Positions 23,359 through 39,686 of a stretch of DNA of 58,525 bases are shown here, piece by piece (position 1 is the stretch's first letter; every line of letters starts with the position of its first letter). The DNA is taken from assembly GCA_007694185.1 (NCBI GenBank), contig RECD01000202.1, positions 1 to 58,525 on the forward strand. The letters run 5' to 3'. The DNA is from Planctomycetaceae bacterium (lineage in GTDB: Bacteria > Planctomycetota > Planctomycetia > Pirellulales > Pirellulaceae). A program made the position numbers and the translations under genes. The notes under the pieces were generated by a model, which worked only from the letters and a program-made list of their open reading frames with translations, made no database searches and had not been told where the DNA came from.

Positions 23359-23637
23359 AGCGGCCGATCACGGCCGGCCCAGCGACGCCGATGCCAGCCA
23401 CTCAGGCCCCGCCCAACGAAGCTTTGGGACGAACCGAATCGTGGTCGCGGTGGTGCGGCATCATTTCCTGTTCCGCGTGGGCAAAGCGTGTCGATCGAGG
23501 CCGGATCGGCTAAAATGGGGACAGCGCGAGTCGAGCGGGAGATTCCCCGCCGTGACATCGCCACGCGATCTCATTCGGTGGCAACGAGATCAGCCCCCAC
23601 GCCACTTCCCAACCTTTCCGCCCGCAGAACTCTTGGT

Positions 23638-26600
23638 ATGGACTCCTCCCACAACAAGACAATCAGCCCGGTGTCCCCTACCGCCCGCCGGACGGCCGCA
23701 CCGTTTTTCATGACGGCACTGACTCTCGGCCTGGTCCTCAACCCGGGAATCGCCCAAGGCGATTGGCTGACATTTCGCGGCGATTCTTCACGTTCGGGCT
23801 ACTCGCCCGAACCGCTCGGCGAGGAGCTGACGGTACGCTGGAGTCACGATGCGGGCGCCCCAACACCCGCTTGGCCGCGGTCCGGCAGGCTACCTTTCGA
23901 CCAGGCTTATCACACGGTCGTGTCGGGTGACGCCGTGTTCTTCGCCAGTTCGACCGATCACTCCCTTTATCGCGTCGACGCCCGAACCGGCGCCGGCGAG
24001 CCGATCTTCACGTCCGACGGCCCGCTCCGCTTCGCCCCGACGATCTGGCGTGACCGGCTGTTCCTGGTCAGCGACGACGGTTACCTCCATTGCCTGACGT
24101 TCGAGGGCGACACGATTTGGAAGCATCGAGGTGGCCCCAGCGATGCGAGGCGGTTGGGCAACGAGCAGTTGATTTCGAAATGGCCTGCCCGGGGCGCGCC
24201 GGCGGTCGTCGGCGACACGGTTTACTACGCCGCGGGTATCTGGCCGACCGACGAAATTTTCGTCTACGCCCTCGATTGTCAAACCGGCGATCCGGTTTGG
24301 GTCAATGACGATTCGGGCGGGCTGTACATGCCCCAGCCTCACGGTGGCGCGGATGCCGAAAGCGGCGTTTCGGCTCAAGGATACTTGGTCGTTTCAGGCG
24401 ACGATTCCAGCGCTGTCGCGTTCCCAAAACCCGCAACTGCGGACGCGACCGATGCGGCTGACGACCGAGACGATTCGCGGCCACGACTGCTGGTTCCGAC
24501 GGGCCGCGCCGTCCCCGCCGCCTTCGATCTGGCGACCGGTAAATTCGAGTACTTCCATCTCCAACAATATGGCCAGCGAGGTGGTTTCGCCACGATGGCC
24601 GTCGGACCGATGTTCTTCAACAGCGGCATCGCGTTCGATCTCGCCAGCGGCCAGGCCGGCGAGACCCTCGGCGGCGGCCCGATGGCGGCGCTGCCAGGAG
24701 GTCTGGTCCGCGCCGATGGCAAACAGGTGGTCGCTTACCGCTGGGTCGAACAGGAGAAGGCGGATCGCCGCGGCCAGGTTTCCAAATCTTGGGGACTCGC
24801 CCCACTCTGGACGACGCCGAATGTCGATGGCGGCACCTCCCTGATCGTCGCCGGTAAAACGGTTGTCGCCGGTGGCGATGGTCAGGTGACCCTGCTCGAT
24901 GCCGAGACCGGTGAACTGCAAGCGGCGTTCCAGGTTACCGGCAACGCGTACGGGTTGTCAGCCTCCGGCGGACGCCTGTTCGTCAGCACCGATTCGGGCC
25001 ACGTCTATGGGATCGGTAAAGCTGATTCGGATCGTCCCGGTTCAGGTCCGATTCGCCATGTGTCCGTCGCACCTGCCGAGTCGCTCTGGCCGGCCGACCC
25101 GTCGGTCGCGGCTGCGGCGGCCGAGATCCTAGCGAAGGCGGATCTGCATGGCGAAGGCGCGAACGCGCAAGGCTATTGTCTCGATTTCGGCTGCGGTGAC
25201 GGTCACTTGGCGTACGAATTGGCGACCCGCAGCAACCTGCGGGTCTACGGCGTTGACGACGATGCCGCCGCCATCGTCGCCGCCCGCCAACGGCTGATCC
25301 GAGCCGGCGTTTACGGTTCCCGGGTAACCCTGCATCATGTCGATGACCTGGCCAAAACCGGCTACCCGAATTACTTCGCCAACCTGGTCGTCTCGCGACG
25401 CAGCCTGTCACAGCCCCAAGCGACGTTCCTCGAGTCAGGCTGGCAGGCGAGCCAACGCCCGTACGGCGGCGTGGCGATTTTCGGCCCCGCCGGAAAGATG
25501 CGAGTCGAACGACGCGGGGCCCTCGAAAAGGCGGGCGAGTGGACTCACCAGTACATGAGCGCCGCCAACCAACTCTGTTCGACCGACGAACGGCTCGAAG
25601 GGCCACTCGGCATGCTCTGGTACCGCGACATCGCGATCGACGTCCCTCAACGCCACGGCCGAGCACCGGCGCCGCTGTTTTACGACGGCCTGCTCTACCA
25701 CGAGGGGATCGACGAACTCGTTTGCGTCGACGCGTACAACGGGACGGAGGTTTGGCGTTATCCGTTGCCCGGAATCCTCAAGGCTTTCGACGGCGACGAA
25801 CTGATGGGTGTCGCCGGGACCGGCAGCAATTACTGCGTTGGACCGACCGGGGTTTACGTCCGGCTCGAAGACCACGCCCTGCGGATCGATCGCCGCACCG
25901 GCAAGCTGCTCGGCAAGTTCTCCGCGCCGCTTCAAACCGATGGCCAAGTTGGCATTTGGGGCTACCTGTCATTGGAACAGGGGATCCTCTTCGGGTCGCT
26001 CGCCAACCCGGAGCATGTCGTGACTTTCCGCTACCGAGCCACCAGCGGCAACATGGCGGACCAACTGACCGAATCGTCGACCCTGTTCGCGTTGAACGCC
26101 GAGTCGGGTGAACTGCTGTGGCGATTCGACGCCCAAGATTCGATCCGCCACAACGCGATCGCGGTCGGTGACGACCAGGTTTTCCTAATCGATCGGCCGT
26201 TGGCCGATTTCGATCGCAGTCGCGACGGCAAACCGGCCGCTGGCCAGCACCCGACCGGCACCTTGATCGCCTTGGATGCCAAGACCGGCGAAGAGCAATG
26301 GCGAAACGGAGACCAGATCGACGGCACGACGCTGTCGCTCGCCCCCGAGTACCGCAAGTTGCTGATGAGCTATCAGCCGACGCGTTTCTCATTGGCCTCC
26401 GAGGTCGGTGGCCGACTGGCCGTGTTCTCGACCGAACAAGGCGAGATGACTTGGTCGAAAGAGGCCAGCTATTCCAGCCGCCCGCTGATCAACGACTACA
26501 CCGTCTACGCCCAAGGCGGCGCCTGGGATTTGCTCAGCGGTGAGCAACGCCCGTTCAACTTCAGCCGCTCGTATGGCTGCGGCGTCCTGGCCGGCTCCCG

Positions 26601-27642
26601 TCACATGATGGTTTATCGCTCCGCGACCCTCGGCTACTTCGACCTGCTCAAAAATGAACAGACCGAGAACTACGGCGGCATGCGGCCCGGTTGTTGGATC
26701 AACGCGCTCCCGGCCGGCGGCCTGGTGCTGGTCCCGGATGCCTCGGCGGGTTGCGTTTGCAGCTACCTGAACCAATCCTGGATCGCGCTGGAACCGGTCG
26801 GTGTTCGCCCCCCGACCTTGCAACCCGACGGCGGAGCATTCTCTGAAGGTCTCGACGTGACCGTCACGCACGACGACCGCGAAGCCGTGTTGCGGTACAC
26901 CCTCGATGGCAGTTCCCCGAACGTCGATTCGCCGATCTACACCGAACCGCTGACCCTCGCCGCAACGACCCGCCTGCGGGTCCGAGCGTTTTCGGCCGAC
27001 GGTCAGGTCAGTCGCCCCGGCGAAGCCGAGTACCTGATCGACCCCACGCTCGTTGACCTCGACGATTCGCTGTGGCGGGTCTGGGACACCGATCATCCGC
27101 AGGTCTCCTCCGCTCCCAGCAACTGGTCGGTCGAGAATGGCGTCGTCCGACAACGCTCGAACATCTTCGTCGGCAGTGCCACCGACCCGAACCCCGAAGT
27201 GGAACGTTACGGGACATTGCGGATTTTCGAAGGGCCCGGCGGCAGCGACTTCCGAGACGGCGAAATCGAGATGGAAATCCGCTCCGCAGATGATGACAGC
27301 ATCGGCTTCGCTTTCCGAGCCCAAGACGAAAGTCGGCATTACCTCTGGGCGACCGACTTGCAACGCAAGTTCCGGATCTTGGCTCGCAAGGACGGCGACG
27401 ATTACCAGGTGTTGGCCAAGAACGGATCGAGCTACCAGAAAAACACCTGGCAGCGGGTTCGAGTCATCCTGCAAGGCAGCCGCATCACCGTGGAGGTTGA
27501 TGGCGAAAAGGACTTTTCGATCGAAGACGACCGCTTCGCAGCCGGAACGCTGGCCCTCTACAGTTGGGGTTCTGACAACGTCGAGTTCCGCAACATCGTG
27601 ATCCGCCCTGCCGAGACCGATGGAAACTCCGGCGGCGATTGA
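23638..27642 (+). CDS. Secreted PQQ-type propeller protein with internal SAM-methyltransferase domain
   Basis: 1334 residues with a signal peptide (FFMTALTLGLVLNPGIAQG). Layout: PQQ-like beta-propeller blades (about 45-480; e.g. DWLTFRGDSSRSGYS, LLDAETGELQAAFQV); a class I methyltransferase domain (about 490-610) with SAM motif I LDFGCGDGHLAYEL (from residue 515), acidic post-motif VYGVDDDAAAIVAARQRL and VDDLAKTGYPNYFANLVVSR; a second set of propeller blades (about 650-1050; VDAYNGTEVWRYPL, LDAKTGEEQW); a chitobiase/hexosaminidase C-terminal-type domain (about 1055-1140; LRYTLDGSSPNVDSPIYTE); and a concanavalin-like domain (about 1145-1320). The reading frame is open throughout, so the fusion is not an assembly of pseudogenes. 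How a secreted protein would obtain SAM is unclear. The preceding 279 bases hold no recognised gene. Confidence 0.9.
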   Translation: MDSSHNKTISPVSPTARRTAAPFFMTALTLGLVLNPGIAQGDWLTFRGDSSRSGYSPEPLGEELTVRWSHDAGAPTPAWPRSGRLPFDQAYHTVVSGDAVFFASSTDHSLYRVDARTGAGEPIFTSDGPLRFAPTIWRDRLFLVSDDGYLHCLTFEGDTIWKHRGGPSDARRLGNEQLISKWPARGAPAVVGDTVYYAAGIWPTDEIFVYALDCQTGDPVWVNDDSGGLYMPQPHGGADAESGVSAQGYLVVSGDDSSAVAFPKPATADATDAADDRDDSRPRLLVPTGRAVPAAFDLATGKFEYFHLQQYGQRGGFATMAVGPMFFNSGIAFDLASGQAGETLGGGPMAALPGGLVRADGKQVVAYRWVEQEKADRRGQVSKSWGLAPLWTTPNVDGGTSLIVAGKTVVAGGDGQVTLLDAETGELQAAFQVTGNAYGLSASGGRLFVSTDSGHVYGIGKADSDRPGSGPIRHVSVAPAESLWPADPSVAAAAAEILAKADLHGEGANAQGYCLDFGCGDGHLAYELATRSNLRVYGVDDDAAAIVAARQRLIRAGVYGSRVTLHHVDDLAKTGYPNYFANLVVSRRSLSQPQATFLESGWQASQRPYGGVAIFGPAGKMRVERRGALEKAGEWTHQYMSAANQLCSTDERLEGPLGMLWYRDIAIDVPQRHGRAPAPLFYDGLLYHEGIDELVCVDAYNGTEVWRYPLPGILKAFDGDELMGVAGTGSNYCVGPTGVYVRLEDHALRIDRRTGKLLGKFSAPLQTDGQVGIWGYLSLEQGILFGSLANPEHVVTFRYRATSGNMADQLTESSTLFALNAESGELLWRFDAQDSIRHNAIAVGDDQVFLIDRPLADFDRSRDGKPAAGQHPTGTLIALDAKTGEEQWRNGDQIDGTTLSLAPEYRKLLMSYQPTRFSLASEVGGRLAVFSTEQGEMTWSKEASYSSRPLINDYTVYAQGGAWDLLSGEQRPFNFSRSYGCGVLAGSRHMMVYRSATLGYFDLLKNEQTENYGGMRPGCWINALPAGGLVLVPDASAGCVCSYLNQSWIALEPVGVRPPTLQPDGGAFSEGLDVTVTHDDREAVLRYTLDGSSPNVDSPIYTEPLTLAATTRLRVRAFSADGQVSRPGEAEYLIDPTLVDLDDSLWRVWDTDHPQVSSAPSNWSVENGVVRQRSNIFVGSATDPNPEVERYGTLRIFEGPGGSDFRDGEIEMEIRSADDDSIGFAFRAQDESRHYLWATDLQRKFRILARKDGDDYQVLAKNGSSYQKNTWQRVRVILQGSRITVEVDGEKDFSIEDDRFAAGTLALYSWGSDNVEFRNIVIRPAETDGNSGGD

Positions 27643-27795
27643 GCTCATCGTGGAACCCGCTTGGCCGAATCCCTTGCCGGGATGTGATCGCGCTAGCATT
27701 CGCACCCCGCCTGGGTGCCATGCCTTGCCTTCGTCTTCCCGAGCTGGAAGCCGTTCCTTTCGCCTCTCGGTCCCTGCCTCCCCATCGTTTTGATC

Positions 27796-28362
27796 ATGTC
27801 GACCGCGAACCCAGCCGACACTTCCGACGCCGCTCCCACGATCGCCCAGATCGGGATCGTCACCGTTTCTGACCGTGCCTCAAGCGGTGAGTACGAGGAT
27901 CGGGGTGGGCCGGCGATTCGGGACTACTTGAACGAGGTGTTGGCGAGCCCTTGGCAGGGTCTGACGCGGCTCATCCCGGATGACCGATCGACGATCGAAG
28001 CGACCCTCCGTGAGTTAGCCGATCTCGGTTGCCCCCTGATCGTCACCACCGGCGGCACCGGCCCGGCACCGCGCGACGTGACGCCGGAAGCGACCGAAGC
28101 GGCATGTGAAAAAATGCTGCCGGGGTTCGGCGAGCGGATGCGGGAGGTGTCGCTGCAAAAGGTCCCCACCGCGATCCTGTCGCGTCAGACCGCCGGGATC
28201 ATAAAATCGTCATTGATCGTCAACCTGCCAGGCCAACCGAGGGCGATCGCGGAGTGCCTCGATGCCGTCTTCGCCGCGATCCCCTACGCGATCGACCTGA
28301 TCGGCGGCCCAAGACTCGAAACCGATCCGCAGCGGTTGGTCGCCTTTCGCCCAAAGAAGTGA
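27796..28362 (+). CDS. mog: Molybdopterin adenylyltransferase (MogA/MoaB family)
   Basis: 188 residues. The protein adenylylates molybdopterin before molybdenum insertion. Family motifs: IGIVTVSDRASSGEYEDRGG at the start, the MPT-binding loop TTGGTGPAPRDVTPEAT, and IVNLPGQPRAI near the end. The ATG at 27796 precedes the conserved core by 17 residues; an upstream in-frame ATG at 27715 adds a non-conserved hydrophobic stretch. It is followed after 65 bases by a small membrane protein. MogA and MoaB cannot be separated by eye. Confidence 0.93.
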   Translation: MSTANPADTSDAAPTIAQIGIVTVSDRASSGEYEDRGGPAIRDYLNEVLASPWQGLTRLIPDDRSTIEATLRELADLGCPLIVTTGGTGPAPRDVTPEATEAACEKMLPGFGERMREVSLQKVPTAILSRQTAGIIKSSLIVNLPGQPRAIAECLDAVFAAIPYAIDLIGGPRLETDPQRLVAFRPKK

Positions 28363-37686: not shown

Positions 37687-39327
37687 TCAGTCGGCGAAGC
37701 AGTAGAGACGGGTACGGGTGCGGACGTAGAGCCGACCGTCCGAGATCGCCGGCGTCGCCGCGGTCGCCTCCGCCATGTCGTTGCGGCTCAATACCCGCAG
37801 TTCCGGACCGTCGTCGATCACCGTCAAGATCCCAGGTTCGGACGTGACGTAAATTTTACCGTCACCGTGAACGGGCGAAGCGAGGTAGTTGCCGACGGTC
37901 CCGATCCGCTGACGCTCCCAGACCGGTTCGCCACGCTCGATGTCGAACGAGCTGGCGATGCCGCCCTGCTTGACCAGAAACATCCGGTCGCCGGCGACGA
38001 GCGGCGACACGATGTGGGACGGAGCCTTCGACGGGTGCGACCACAGCACATGGGTCTGCGAAACGTCTCCTGATCCGCCTCCACGCACCGCTTGGATCGA
38101 AGACTGCTTCTGAAGTTCATCCAATTCGGCAGTGATTTTGGCGATGTCTTGTACCGATCCGAGCCTTTCGCGAACCTCGCTTGCCGACAGGCCGCCGCGG
38201 TTCGACGGATCGAGGAACGCCAAGTCGATCTCGTCCCCTTCCAATACCCCGTCGCCGTTGATGTCACCCCGTTCAAACTTTTTCCAGAACGCCTCCGGAA
38301 TCGGCTTGTCTTTGTTCAACCGATGTTGGTTGGCGAGGATCTCCTCACGGGTGATCTTGCCGTCCCCGTTGACGTCGGCGGTCGCCAGCCACTGATAGGT
38401 GATACCGGAACTTTCGACCGATACGTAAGCCACGCCGTCGCGAACCACCGGCGTCGTCTTGATATTTCGACAATGCAGGTCTGCGAACCATTTCCGTTCG
38501 CCGGTGTCGTAATCGTAACCGATCAGTTTCCCGGTTCCCGCAACGACGACCTCCGGCCCATCAGCGGTTTCACAGATCACCGGATGGGAGTAGCTGCATG
38601 CCATGTCGCCGCGATCGTCTTGCCAAACGATCTCTCCCGTCCGCTTGTTCAACCCGTAGGCGGCCGGAAACAGGTCATCATCCTGCGCGAAAAACAGTCG
38701 CTCGCCATGCACCACGGGCGAAGCGCCCGGCCCCCAGTCGAACACGAAGTAGGGTTCCGGGATCTCCGTTTGCCACACCGACTCGCCCGACGCGGCGTCC
38801 AGCGCCATCAAACCCAGCCTGGCATGGTAGAGATACACCCGCTCATCATCGGCCGCCGGCGTTGACGACGCGTAGCTGTTGGAGGCATGCACCAGCGGCA
38901 ACGGGTCCCCTTCGATCGGGAAGTCTCGCTGCCAAAGCGGCTTGCCGGTGGAGGCGTCGAAGGCTTGCACCCGAAACCGGTCGCCCGGCAACTCCCCGAT
39001 CATCGCGGTCGCGAAAATGCGGCCCGCGGCGATGCAGGGCGAACCGATCCCGTCACCGACCTCGGCTGACCAACTCAAATTTGCCGACGTCGGCGAGAAC
39101 TCGACCGGCAGCCCGCGATCGGACAACGACACGCCGGTGCAGTTGGGGCCTCGCCATTGCGGCCAATCCTCGGCGATGGCCAGGGACGAGCCTGCCAGCG
39201 TCAAAGCCATCGCCCCGAGCGACAACAGGCTTGGCCGAACGGCAGCCGAACTCCAGTCTGAAATTGCAACAAGCCTCCTGCCAACTGAGCGATGGGGGGG
39301 CTCGGTAGCGAATAACGACGACGGCAT
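37687..39327 (-). CDS. Secreted PQQ-like propeller protein with inserted EF-hands
   Basis: 546 residues. Export signal around SLLSLGAMALTLAGSSLAIA, then DWPQWRGPNCTGVS, the usual opening of planctomycete BamB/PQQ-type propellers. Blades include FDASTGKPLWQRDF, LDAASGESVWQTEI and YDYDTGERKWFADL. Between blades (about residues 310-375) are two EF-hand calcium loops, DVNGDGKITREE and DINGDGVLEGDE. It might bind PQQ as a dehydrogenase or act as a scaffold; catalytic residues are not clear. GAGGAG 7 bases before the ATG at 39327 supports this start. It precedes the giant chimeric gene on the same strand. Confidence 0.88.
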   Translation of the reverse strand: MPSSLFATEPPHRSVGRRLVAISDWSSAAVRPSLLSLGAMALTLAGSSLAIAEDWPQWRGPNCTGVSLSDRGLPVEFSPTSANLSWSAEVGDGIGSPCIAAGRIFATAMIGELPGDRFRVQAFDASTGKPLWQRDFPIEGDPLPLVHASNSYASSTPAADDERVYLYHARLGLMALDAASGESVWQTEIPEPYFVFDWGPGASPVVHGERLFFAQDDDLFPAAYGLNKRTGEIVWQDDRGDMACSYSHPVICETADGPEVVVAGTGKLIGYDYDTGERKWFADLHCRNIKTTPVVRDGVAYVSVESSGITYQWLATADVNGDGKITREEILANQHRLNKDKPIPEAFWKKFERGDINGDGVLEGDEIDLAFLDPSNRGGLSASEVRERLGSVQDIAKITAELDELQKQSSIQAVRGGGSGDVSQTHVLWSHPSKAPSHIVSPLVAGDRMFLVKQGGIASSFDIERGEPVWERQRIGTVGNYLASPVHGDGKIYVTSEPGILTVIDDGPELRVLSRNDMAEATAATPAISDGRLYVRTRTRLYCFAD

Positions 39328-39686
39328 CGGCGGGCTCCTCGAGTGGTCGGGTTGCAAACGGACGAACGACCGATCTCGGCCGAGCAGGAGATGGCCGGGT
39401 AACCCGACTGCGACCTCGGCGATCCGATGTTCATCGCAGGCGGGCTGCTGGCCAAATCAACGCCGAACCGTTCCGGCATCCGAGGCTCCTTTGTAATGTC
39501 CAGACCACGGCGAAACAACTTTTTGTCACCGGCCTGCCCGTCGAGCGGGCCCCCCCCAAGCCGGTTGCTGCGTTGACCAAGGCGTCTGGAATCGGAGGAC
39601 GACCGACGCCTGACCCGCCGCAAAGCTCTTCGGGGAAGTCCGCACCGCCCTTGCCGGCGACTCTCACTGACGGCAACCCGACGCGG
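39328..39686. other. Intergenic region, no gene seen
   Basis: 359 bases between two minus-strand genes. I see no tRNA, repeat or convincing terminator. It presumably carries the promoter of the PQQ/EF-hand gene. Confidence 0.4.

Follow-up and report, generated by a model that had tools for sequence, protein, structure and literature searches.

The closest described systems to the protein reported here are class I small-molecule methyltransferases (Pfam families Methyltransf_25 and Methyltransf_31; solved examples 3dlc and RebM, 3bus) and beta-propellers of the PQQ_2/BamB type (PQQ, pyrroloquinoline quinone). A cap shapes the substrate pocket in active methyltransferases. PRMT5-MEP50 and TYW4 combine a methyltransferase with a neighbouring propeller, and both are intracellular systems with full-length enzymes. 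Methyltransferase folds have also been reused without catalysis, for sensing or structure, in SAMTOR and METTL14, which are intracellular as well. We analysed a gene in a 58,525-nucleotide stretch of DNA from a Planctomycetaceae bacterium (contig RECD01000202.1 of assembly GCA_007694185.1; this whole stretch is called the window). Its product consists, in this order, of a signal peptide, a first propeller, a methyltransferase-like domain, a second propeller, a CHB_HEX_C_1 domain and a concanavalin-like domain. With class I methyltransferases it shares strands 1-5, motif I of the S-adenosylmethionine (SAM) site, an acidic end of strand 2 and a PGG turn, but it belongs to an exported family in which there is no room for strands 6-7 or the cap and in which motif I is often broken. 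With PQQ_2/BamB propellers it shares the blade sequences, but each chain has two propeller-sized halves with another domain between them. The methyltransferase fold stands beside a propeller as in PRMT5-MEP50 and TYW4, and would be kept as in SAMTOR and METTL14, although here it is exported and shortened and the likeness to the latter pair is one of analogy only. This exported architecture of propeller, methyltransferase-like domain and propeller is real and widespread. We lean towards a protein whose core, structural or ligand-binding, is a methyltransferase fold put to new use, and which is not a working methyltransferase.

The gene was a single open frame of 1334 residues, as the first-pass annotation had stated, and its list of domains (a class I methyltransferase domain flanked on either side by PQQ blades, then a chitobiase-type and a concanavalin-like domain) was borne out by Pfam matches above the curated cut-offs. 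PQQ_2 (PF13360) matched in four stretches (90.8 bits, cut-off 27.6), which places the protein in the PQQ_2 propeller superfamily. Methyltransf_25 matched at residues 515-589 (32.6 bits, cut-off 27) and Methyltransf_31 at 514-590 (31.3 bits, cut-off 27), CHB_HEX_C_1 at 1063-1126 (53.2 bits, cut-off 22) and the concanavalin-like family 3keto-disac_hyd at 1203-1323 (42.5 bits, cut-off 26.8). The annotation had also placed the methyltransferase domain inside one propeller, and here the domain stood but its placement had to be corrected. The flanking parts had 440 and 429 residues, compared with about 360-400 for the listed BamB chains. The profile of propeller 1 matched designed PQQ-type propellers and BamB (8orr at 6.8e-18), the best stretches covering about 75-110 residues (about 100 for 8orr), and that of propeller 2 matched quinoprotein dehydrogenases more weakly (1kv9 at 1.1e-7). 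Hence the domain appears to lie between two propeller-sized halves and not within one propeller. The two propeller profiles were related to each other (hhalign probability 93). The protein scored far under the curated cut-offs of the BamB equivalog TIGR03300 (45.6 bits, 285.2 required) and of the PQQ-dependent alcohol dehydrogenase family TIGR03075 (37.1 bits, 480.05 required).

Homologues were drawn from 117 loci, partly hand-chosen, which gave 113 distinct open reading frames (ORFs) of at least 600 amino acids matching the query by phmmer at 1e-20, namely the window protein and 112 homologues. By a length test, the middle segment was present in 112 of the 112 homologues, with at least 110 residues in its columns. 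A tree built with FastTree from the propeller columns alone contained a clade of 68 sequences including the window protein (clade A, support 92 for the tree as calculated, not starred). The 45 sequences outside it are called group B, though they did not form a single clade. Methyltransf_25 was matched independently (E <= 0.01) by 67 of the 68 clade A members, the window protein among them, and by 23 of the 45 others; a few of the remaining sequences, such as L101 and L109, had a hardly recognisable methyltransferase domain. A frameshift or two separate genes, which the annotation had named as a possible refutation, and likewise a fusion by misassembly, were rejected because the homologues repeat the same layout. 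It recurred in 112 other ORFs, several from single-contig genomes, and in one relative, from a single-contig genome (G048), an uninterrupted frame of about 1000 amino acids spanned the middle domain and the propellers on either side of it. No evidence for such an artefact was found among the homologues examined, and we give it virtually no credence.

The signal peptide proposed by the annotation was found in the window protein and recurs in its relatives. The call was made by a simple hydrophobicity rule (core >= 1.6) and not by SignalP, and export was counted in the 104 sequences left after setting aside 9 of the 113 whose N terminus was absent. A strongly hydrophobic stretch directly preceded the conserved DW start of propeller 1 in 100 of these 104, and 103 fitted a loose AxA pattern. 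If the start had been misassigned, the protein could be cytoplasmic, where SAM is available. The ATG of the gene has no strong ribosome-binding site before it by eye, and an in-frame GTG upstream, at 23488, would give a product of 1384 amino acids. Given the position of the hydrophobic core just ahead of the DW start in nearly all sequences, we consider a cytoplasmic protein highly improbable. Export by the twin-arginine translocation (Tat) pathway with SAM already bound was also considered and rejected. The loose Tat pattern RRx[FLVIM] occurred in just 13 of the 104 sequences, several with the arginines upstream of the likely start methionine, and there is therefore no general Tat route able to carry bound SAM.

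The domain itself belongs to the methyltransferase fold family. A profile of the domain matched the solved methyltransferase 3dlc at 9.6e-15, contrary to the refutation that the annotation had named (propeller blades at residues 490-610 with no similarity to methyltransferases). Among its further profile relatives were RebM (3bus, 9e-10) and 6uv6 (9.4e-6), which is entered under the name D-glucose O-methyltransferase. The profile of the group B domain still matched 3dlc at 1.7e-9. On these profile matches, the resemblance to methyltransferases is not due to chance, and the sequences outside clade A are still homologous to them. Strands 1-5 had normal spacing: from motif I to the PGG turn there was a median of 92 residues in both groups, compared with 93 in UbiE. 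From PGG to the WTH of propeller 2, however, there were only 23 residues in clade A (range 23-24) and 47 in group B (19-58), whereas UbiE had a median of 88 residues after PGG (measured in the 16 of 30 control sequences that fitted the search pattern). In clade A at least, the remaining stretch is therefore too short to accommodate strands 6-7 and the cap, and by this length argument the fold is not a complete seven-strand one, strands 6-7 being missing after strand 5. The domain is nevertheless maintained. Its ratio of nonsynonymous to synonymous substitution rates was 0.07-0.36 in 19 pairs, with synonymous sites near saturation in several of them, and it is therefore kept under purifying selection; in the same pairs propeller 1 gave ratios of 0.07-0.23 and propeller 2 gave 0-0.18 (one pair was not computable).

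The SAM motif was distributed unevenly. The window protein has both [DE]xGxGxG and an acidic end of strand 2 (DFGCGDG and D540), the latter at the position that binds ribose in active methyltransferases. Motif I (DxGxGxG) was intact in 49 of the 68 clade A sequences, the window protein included, and in 0 of the 45 others, so that conservation of the SAM residues, which the annotation had left to be checked, holds for part of clade A and not elsewhere. Overall, 64 of the 113 sequences lacked an intact motif. The aspartate D516 was kept in 67/68 sequences of clade A and 0/45 of group B, and an acidic residue at 540 in 57/68 and 31/45, respectively. Parsimony required 11 changes between intact and broken states over all sequences, 10 of them within clade A; this count used a slightly looser motif pattern and does not distinguish gain from loss. 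Even near relatives of the window protein differed, with GCGDG in L040, GVDDG (FGVDDGQ) in L002 and GSGDA in L003. The five most conserved positions of the domain in clade A were A581, P608, G610, G611 and G560; the glycines of motif I ranked 28, 30 and 36 of 141, and D570, near strand 3, was kept in just 60% of clade A by weight. These data favour one of the explanations that the annotation had offered, namely that activity was lost while the fold was kept: the motif is absent from 45/45 sequences outside clade A and broken in 19/68 inside it, and the C-terminal part of the fold has no space.

Several observations weigh against a fold kept only as a building part, and most of them concern the same motif. 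In clade A the SAM-contact positions 516, 518, 520, 522 and 540 had changed 6.2 times on average, where randomly drawn sets of domain positions gave 17.4 (P ~0.01); in group B the figures were 16.2 and 20.9 (P ~0.10). Glycines are slow in general, and this test was uncorrected for it. Motif I (residues 515-524) averaged 3.23 bits in clade A against a domain mean of 2.36, and D516, which together with the acidic residue 540 is so widely kept there, ranked 6th of 141 domain positions. By these measures, the conservation of the motif in clade A exceeds what a pure spacer needs. In addition, the absence of strands 6-7 would follow from lengths, and packing of the domain against the propellers is seen in none of the structure models, the full-length one being of low confidence.

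The slow SAM-contact positions mean that some ligand binding may persist in clade A, as in the annotation's proposal of another bound ligand. In the strongest form of this proposal, the clade A domain would be an extracytoplasmic receptor for SAM, S-adenosylhomocysteine (SAH) or some similar adenosyl or nucleotide compound, signalling to the propellers; it would then be a sensor, the role that SAMTOR has within cells. The rate difference between clade A and the other sequences and the retention of the motif and its acidic residues speak for this tentative alternative, but the motif is broken in 19 of the 68 clade A sequences, near relatives of the window protein among them, D570 is poorly kept, and we know of no supply of SAM outside the cytoplasm, which also counts against an active enzyme. 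A working enzyme also holds its motif more tightly. In the UbiE control, for which 30 genomes were taken by best score out of 59, neither the aspartate nor the middle glycine varied, the position of the first glycine was a cysteine throughout and the last glycine was replaced by alanine only, in 3 of 30. The looser motif pattern was found in 27/30 UbiE sequences compared with 51/68 in clade A, a comparison weakened by the greater overall similarity of the UbiE sequences (59% against 45% mean identity). Motif I in clade A thus reads, in this alignment, as slower than its surroundings yet looser than in a working enzyme. We regard it as unlikely that SAM, SAH or a further adenosyl metabolite is bound extracytoplasmically by the proteins of clade A, whether to act as a signal or, with lower probability, to donate methyl groups; if this were so, they would be extracytoplasmic receptors built on a SAM fold, and a metabolite of the SAM type would have to occur in the periplasm of planctomycetes or around the cells.

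It is very unlikely that the protein is an active methyltransferase which modifies a polysaccharide or some other exported substrate and relies on propeller 2 for the substrate-binding part that the domain lacks. The intact motif I of the window protein, the profile matches to RebM and the D-glucose O-methyltransferase-named entry and the carbohydrate-type domains of the window protein would suit such an enzyme, but strands 6-7 and the cap have no space, the motif is not intact in most of the family, and no partner gene common beyond near relatives or generic genes was found in the loci examined, some of which had short flanks. The annotation's idea that sugars are methylated during export accordingly gained no support from these loci.

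The favoured reading, a fold reused and no longer catalytic, builds on the domain order, the signal-peptide-like start, the short C-terminal part of the domain, the patchy absence of the motif and the purifying selection. In this scheme two propellers would have taken up an ancestral methyltransferase domain between them, and the domain would persist as a rigid spacer or interface that fixes how the propellers are placed with respect to one another and that may retain a remnant of the binding pocket. The propellers would do the protein's work, probably the binding or processing of a substrate outside the cytoplasm, and in the window protein the two carbohydrate-type C-terminal domains may help them. 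These two domains, judged by alignment occupancy (not a domain search), are an addition to the family layout. The ancestral activity probably sits in propeller 2, because this is the most conserved part (mean conservation in clade A 2.84 bits, compared with 2.36 for the methyltransferase domain and 2.36 for propeller 1) and has four cysteines invariant in the sequences complete there, for which a metal site or two disulphides are candidate readings. Either an enzyme fold was recruited and retained as a structural part, in which case the losses of the motif are natural replicates, or adenosyl metabolites are sensed or used by some bacteria outside the cytoplasm. As clade A differs from the remainder, the question can be tested directly. 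Automatic annotation may misname such proteins methyltransferases.

Table 1. Features of the gene and its product in the window.
Feature	Position	Strand	Residues and basis
Whole gene	23638..27642	+	1334 amino acids and stop; open frame and Pfam
Sec-type signal peptide	23638..23760	+	about residues 1-41; hydrophobic core about 23-34; AxA-like site before DW
Propeller 1	23758..25077	+	residues 41-480; PQQ_2/BamB-like blades; Pfam and profile comparison
Shortened class I methyltransferase-like domain	25093..25515	+	residues 486-626; Pfam, profiles, spacing
SAM motif I, DFGCGDG	25183..25203	+	residues 516-522
Acidic residue D540, end of strand 2	25255..25257	+	alignment
P608-Y-G-G611 turn at strand 5	25459..25470	+	P608 and G611 have weight 1.0 in both clades
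Propeller 2	25519..26805	+	residues 628-1056; WTHQY motif at start
Four cysteines, C981, C1019, C1039 and C1041	26578..26760	+	kept in all sequences complete there (65/65 in clade A, 45/45 in group B)
CHB_HEX_C_1 domain	26824..27015	+	residues 1063-1126; 16/113 sequences with letters there
Concanavalin-like domain (PF06439)	27244..27606	+	residues 1203-1323; 13/113 sequences with letters there

Three further cysteines were largely specific to clade A. C733 (25834-25836) was present in 68/68 clade A sequences and 2/45 of the others, and within the methyltransferase domain C514 was present in 64/68 and 8/45 and C519 in 56/68 and 3/45, respectively. C514 or C519 may form a disulphide with C733, but the four clade A sequences without C514 still have C733, which weighs on this idea. 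Structure prediction added little. The full-length model, made from three sequences, had a predicted local distance difference test (pLDDT) score of 43.3 and a predicted template modelling (pTM) score of 0.33 and was not used. The model of the domain (pLDDT 56.5, pTM 0.59) gave no Foldseek match at E <= 0.001, the best row being RebM at 0.075. In VIA-align the best Z was 5.8, below its own stated safe level, and most of the best 50 rows were methyltransferases. Entries of PRMT5-MEP50 were among the weak structure matches of this low-confidence model.

The whole protein, used as query, matched 62 of 392 genomes in a sample of the phylum and 94 of 199 in a sample of the family at 1e-30, and 39 of 297 in a sample of the class at 1e-70; the three samples overlap and many of the matched sequences are more distant paralogues. 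All but one of the 112 homologues (111) came from the phylum of the window. The nearest named relative found was from a Planctomycetaceae metagenome-assembled genome (MAG; L002), 72% identical in the best segment. The exception (L003) came from a MAG titled Verrucomicrobiales. It is no lone stray contig, since the same MAG has family matches on four contigs (L003, L169, L170, L172, L174), one of them sharing 64% identity with the window protein across the central part. Either a second phylum holds the family or the label is wrong. With the central 321 residues as query, 8 of 194 genomes of that MAG's phylum matched at 1e-10, the MAG included. Among 25 sequences from these searches (some overlapping, two of them fragments and some from the genome of L002), the motif I aspartate was present only in L168 and L169, which are the genes of L002 and L003 again. 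A paralogue outside clade A (L078, G000:C210:14500-20500) has a reading frame that stays open over 1351 amino acids, and its middle domain reads CLVVGSERGRL, without a SAM motif. Plasmid records had no match to the family at 1e-20, and no relative was found in viral contigs. The annotation had been unsure whether the architecture was already recorded. Its pieces are, in Pfam, but the whole was not found: none of the best 25 of 27 NCBIfam matches reached its cut-off, and no description was found in the open-access full-text literature, among the matches listed.

Gene neighbourhoods were compared in 22 sequences, namely the window, L002 and 20 fetched stretches, of which L128 is the same place as L002. 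Gene clusters found in at least 3 contexts were few and generic by eye (e.g. DUF1501 proteins). Operon logic was rejected as a guide to function, the shared neighbours being few and generic, and no functional link is claimed. A serine hydrolase gene upstream recurred in one near relative (L127). Downstream, 72 bases away on the same strand, lies a MoCF_biosynth (molybdopterin-binding) gene (27715-28362), and a MoCF-type gene also neighbours the homologous gene in L127 and L042, both of them near relatives. The window encodes another PQQ_2 propeller protein on the reverse strand (37690-39357), which had no methyltransferase match.

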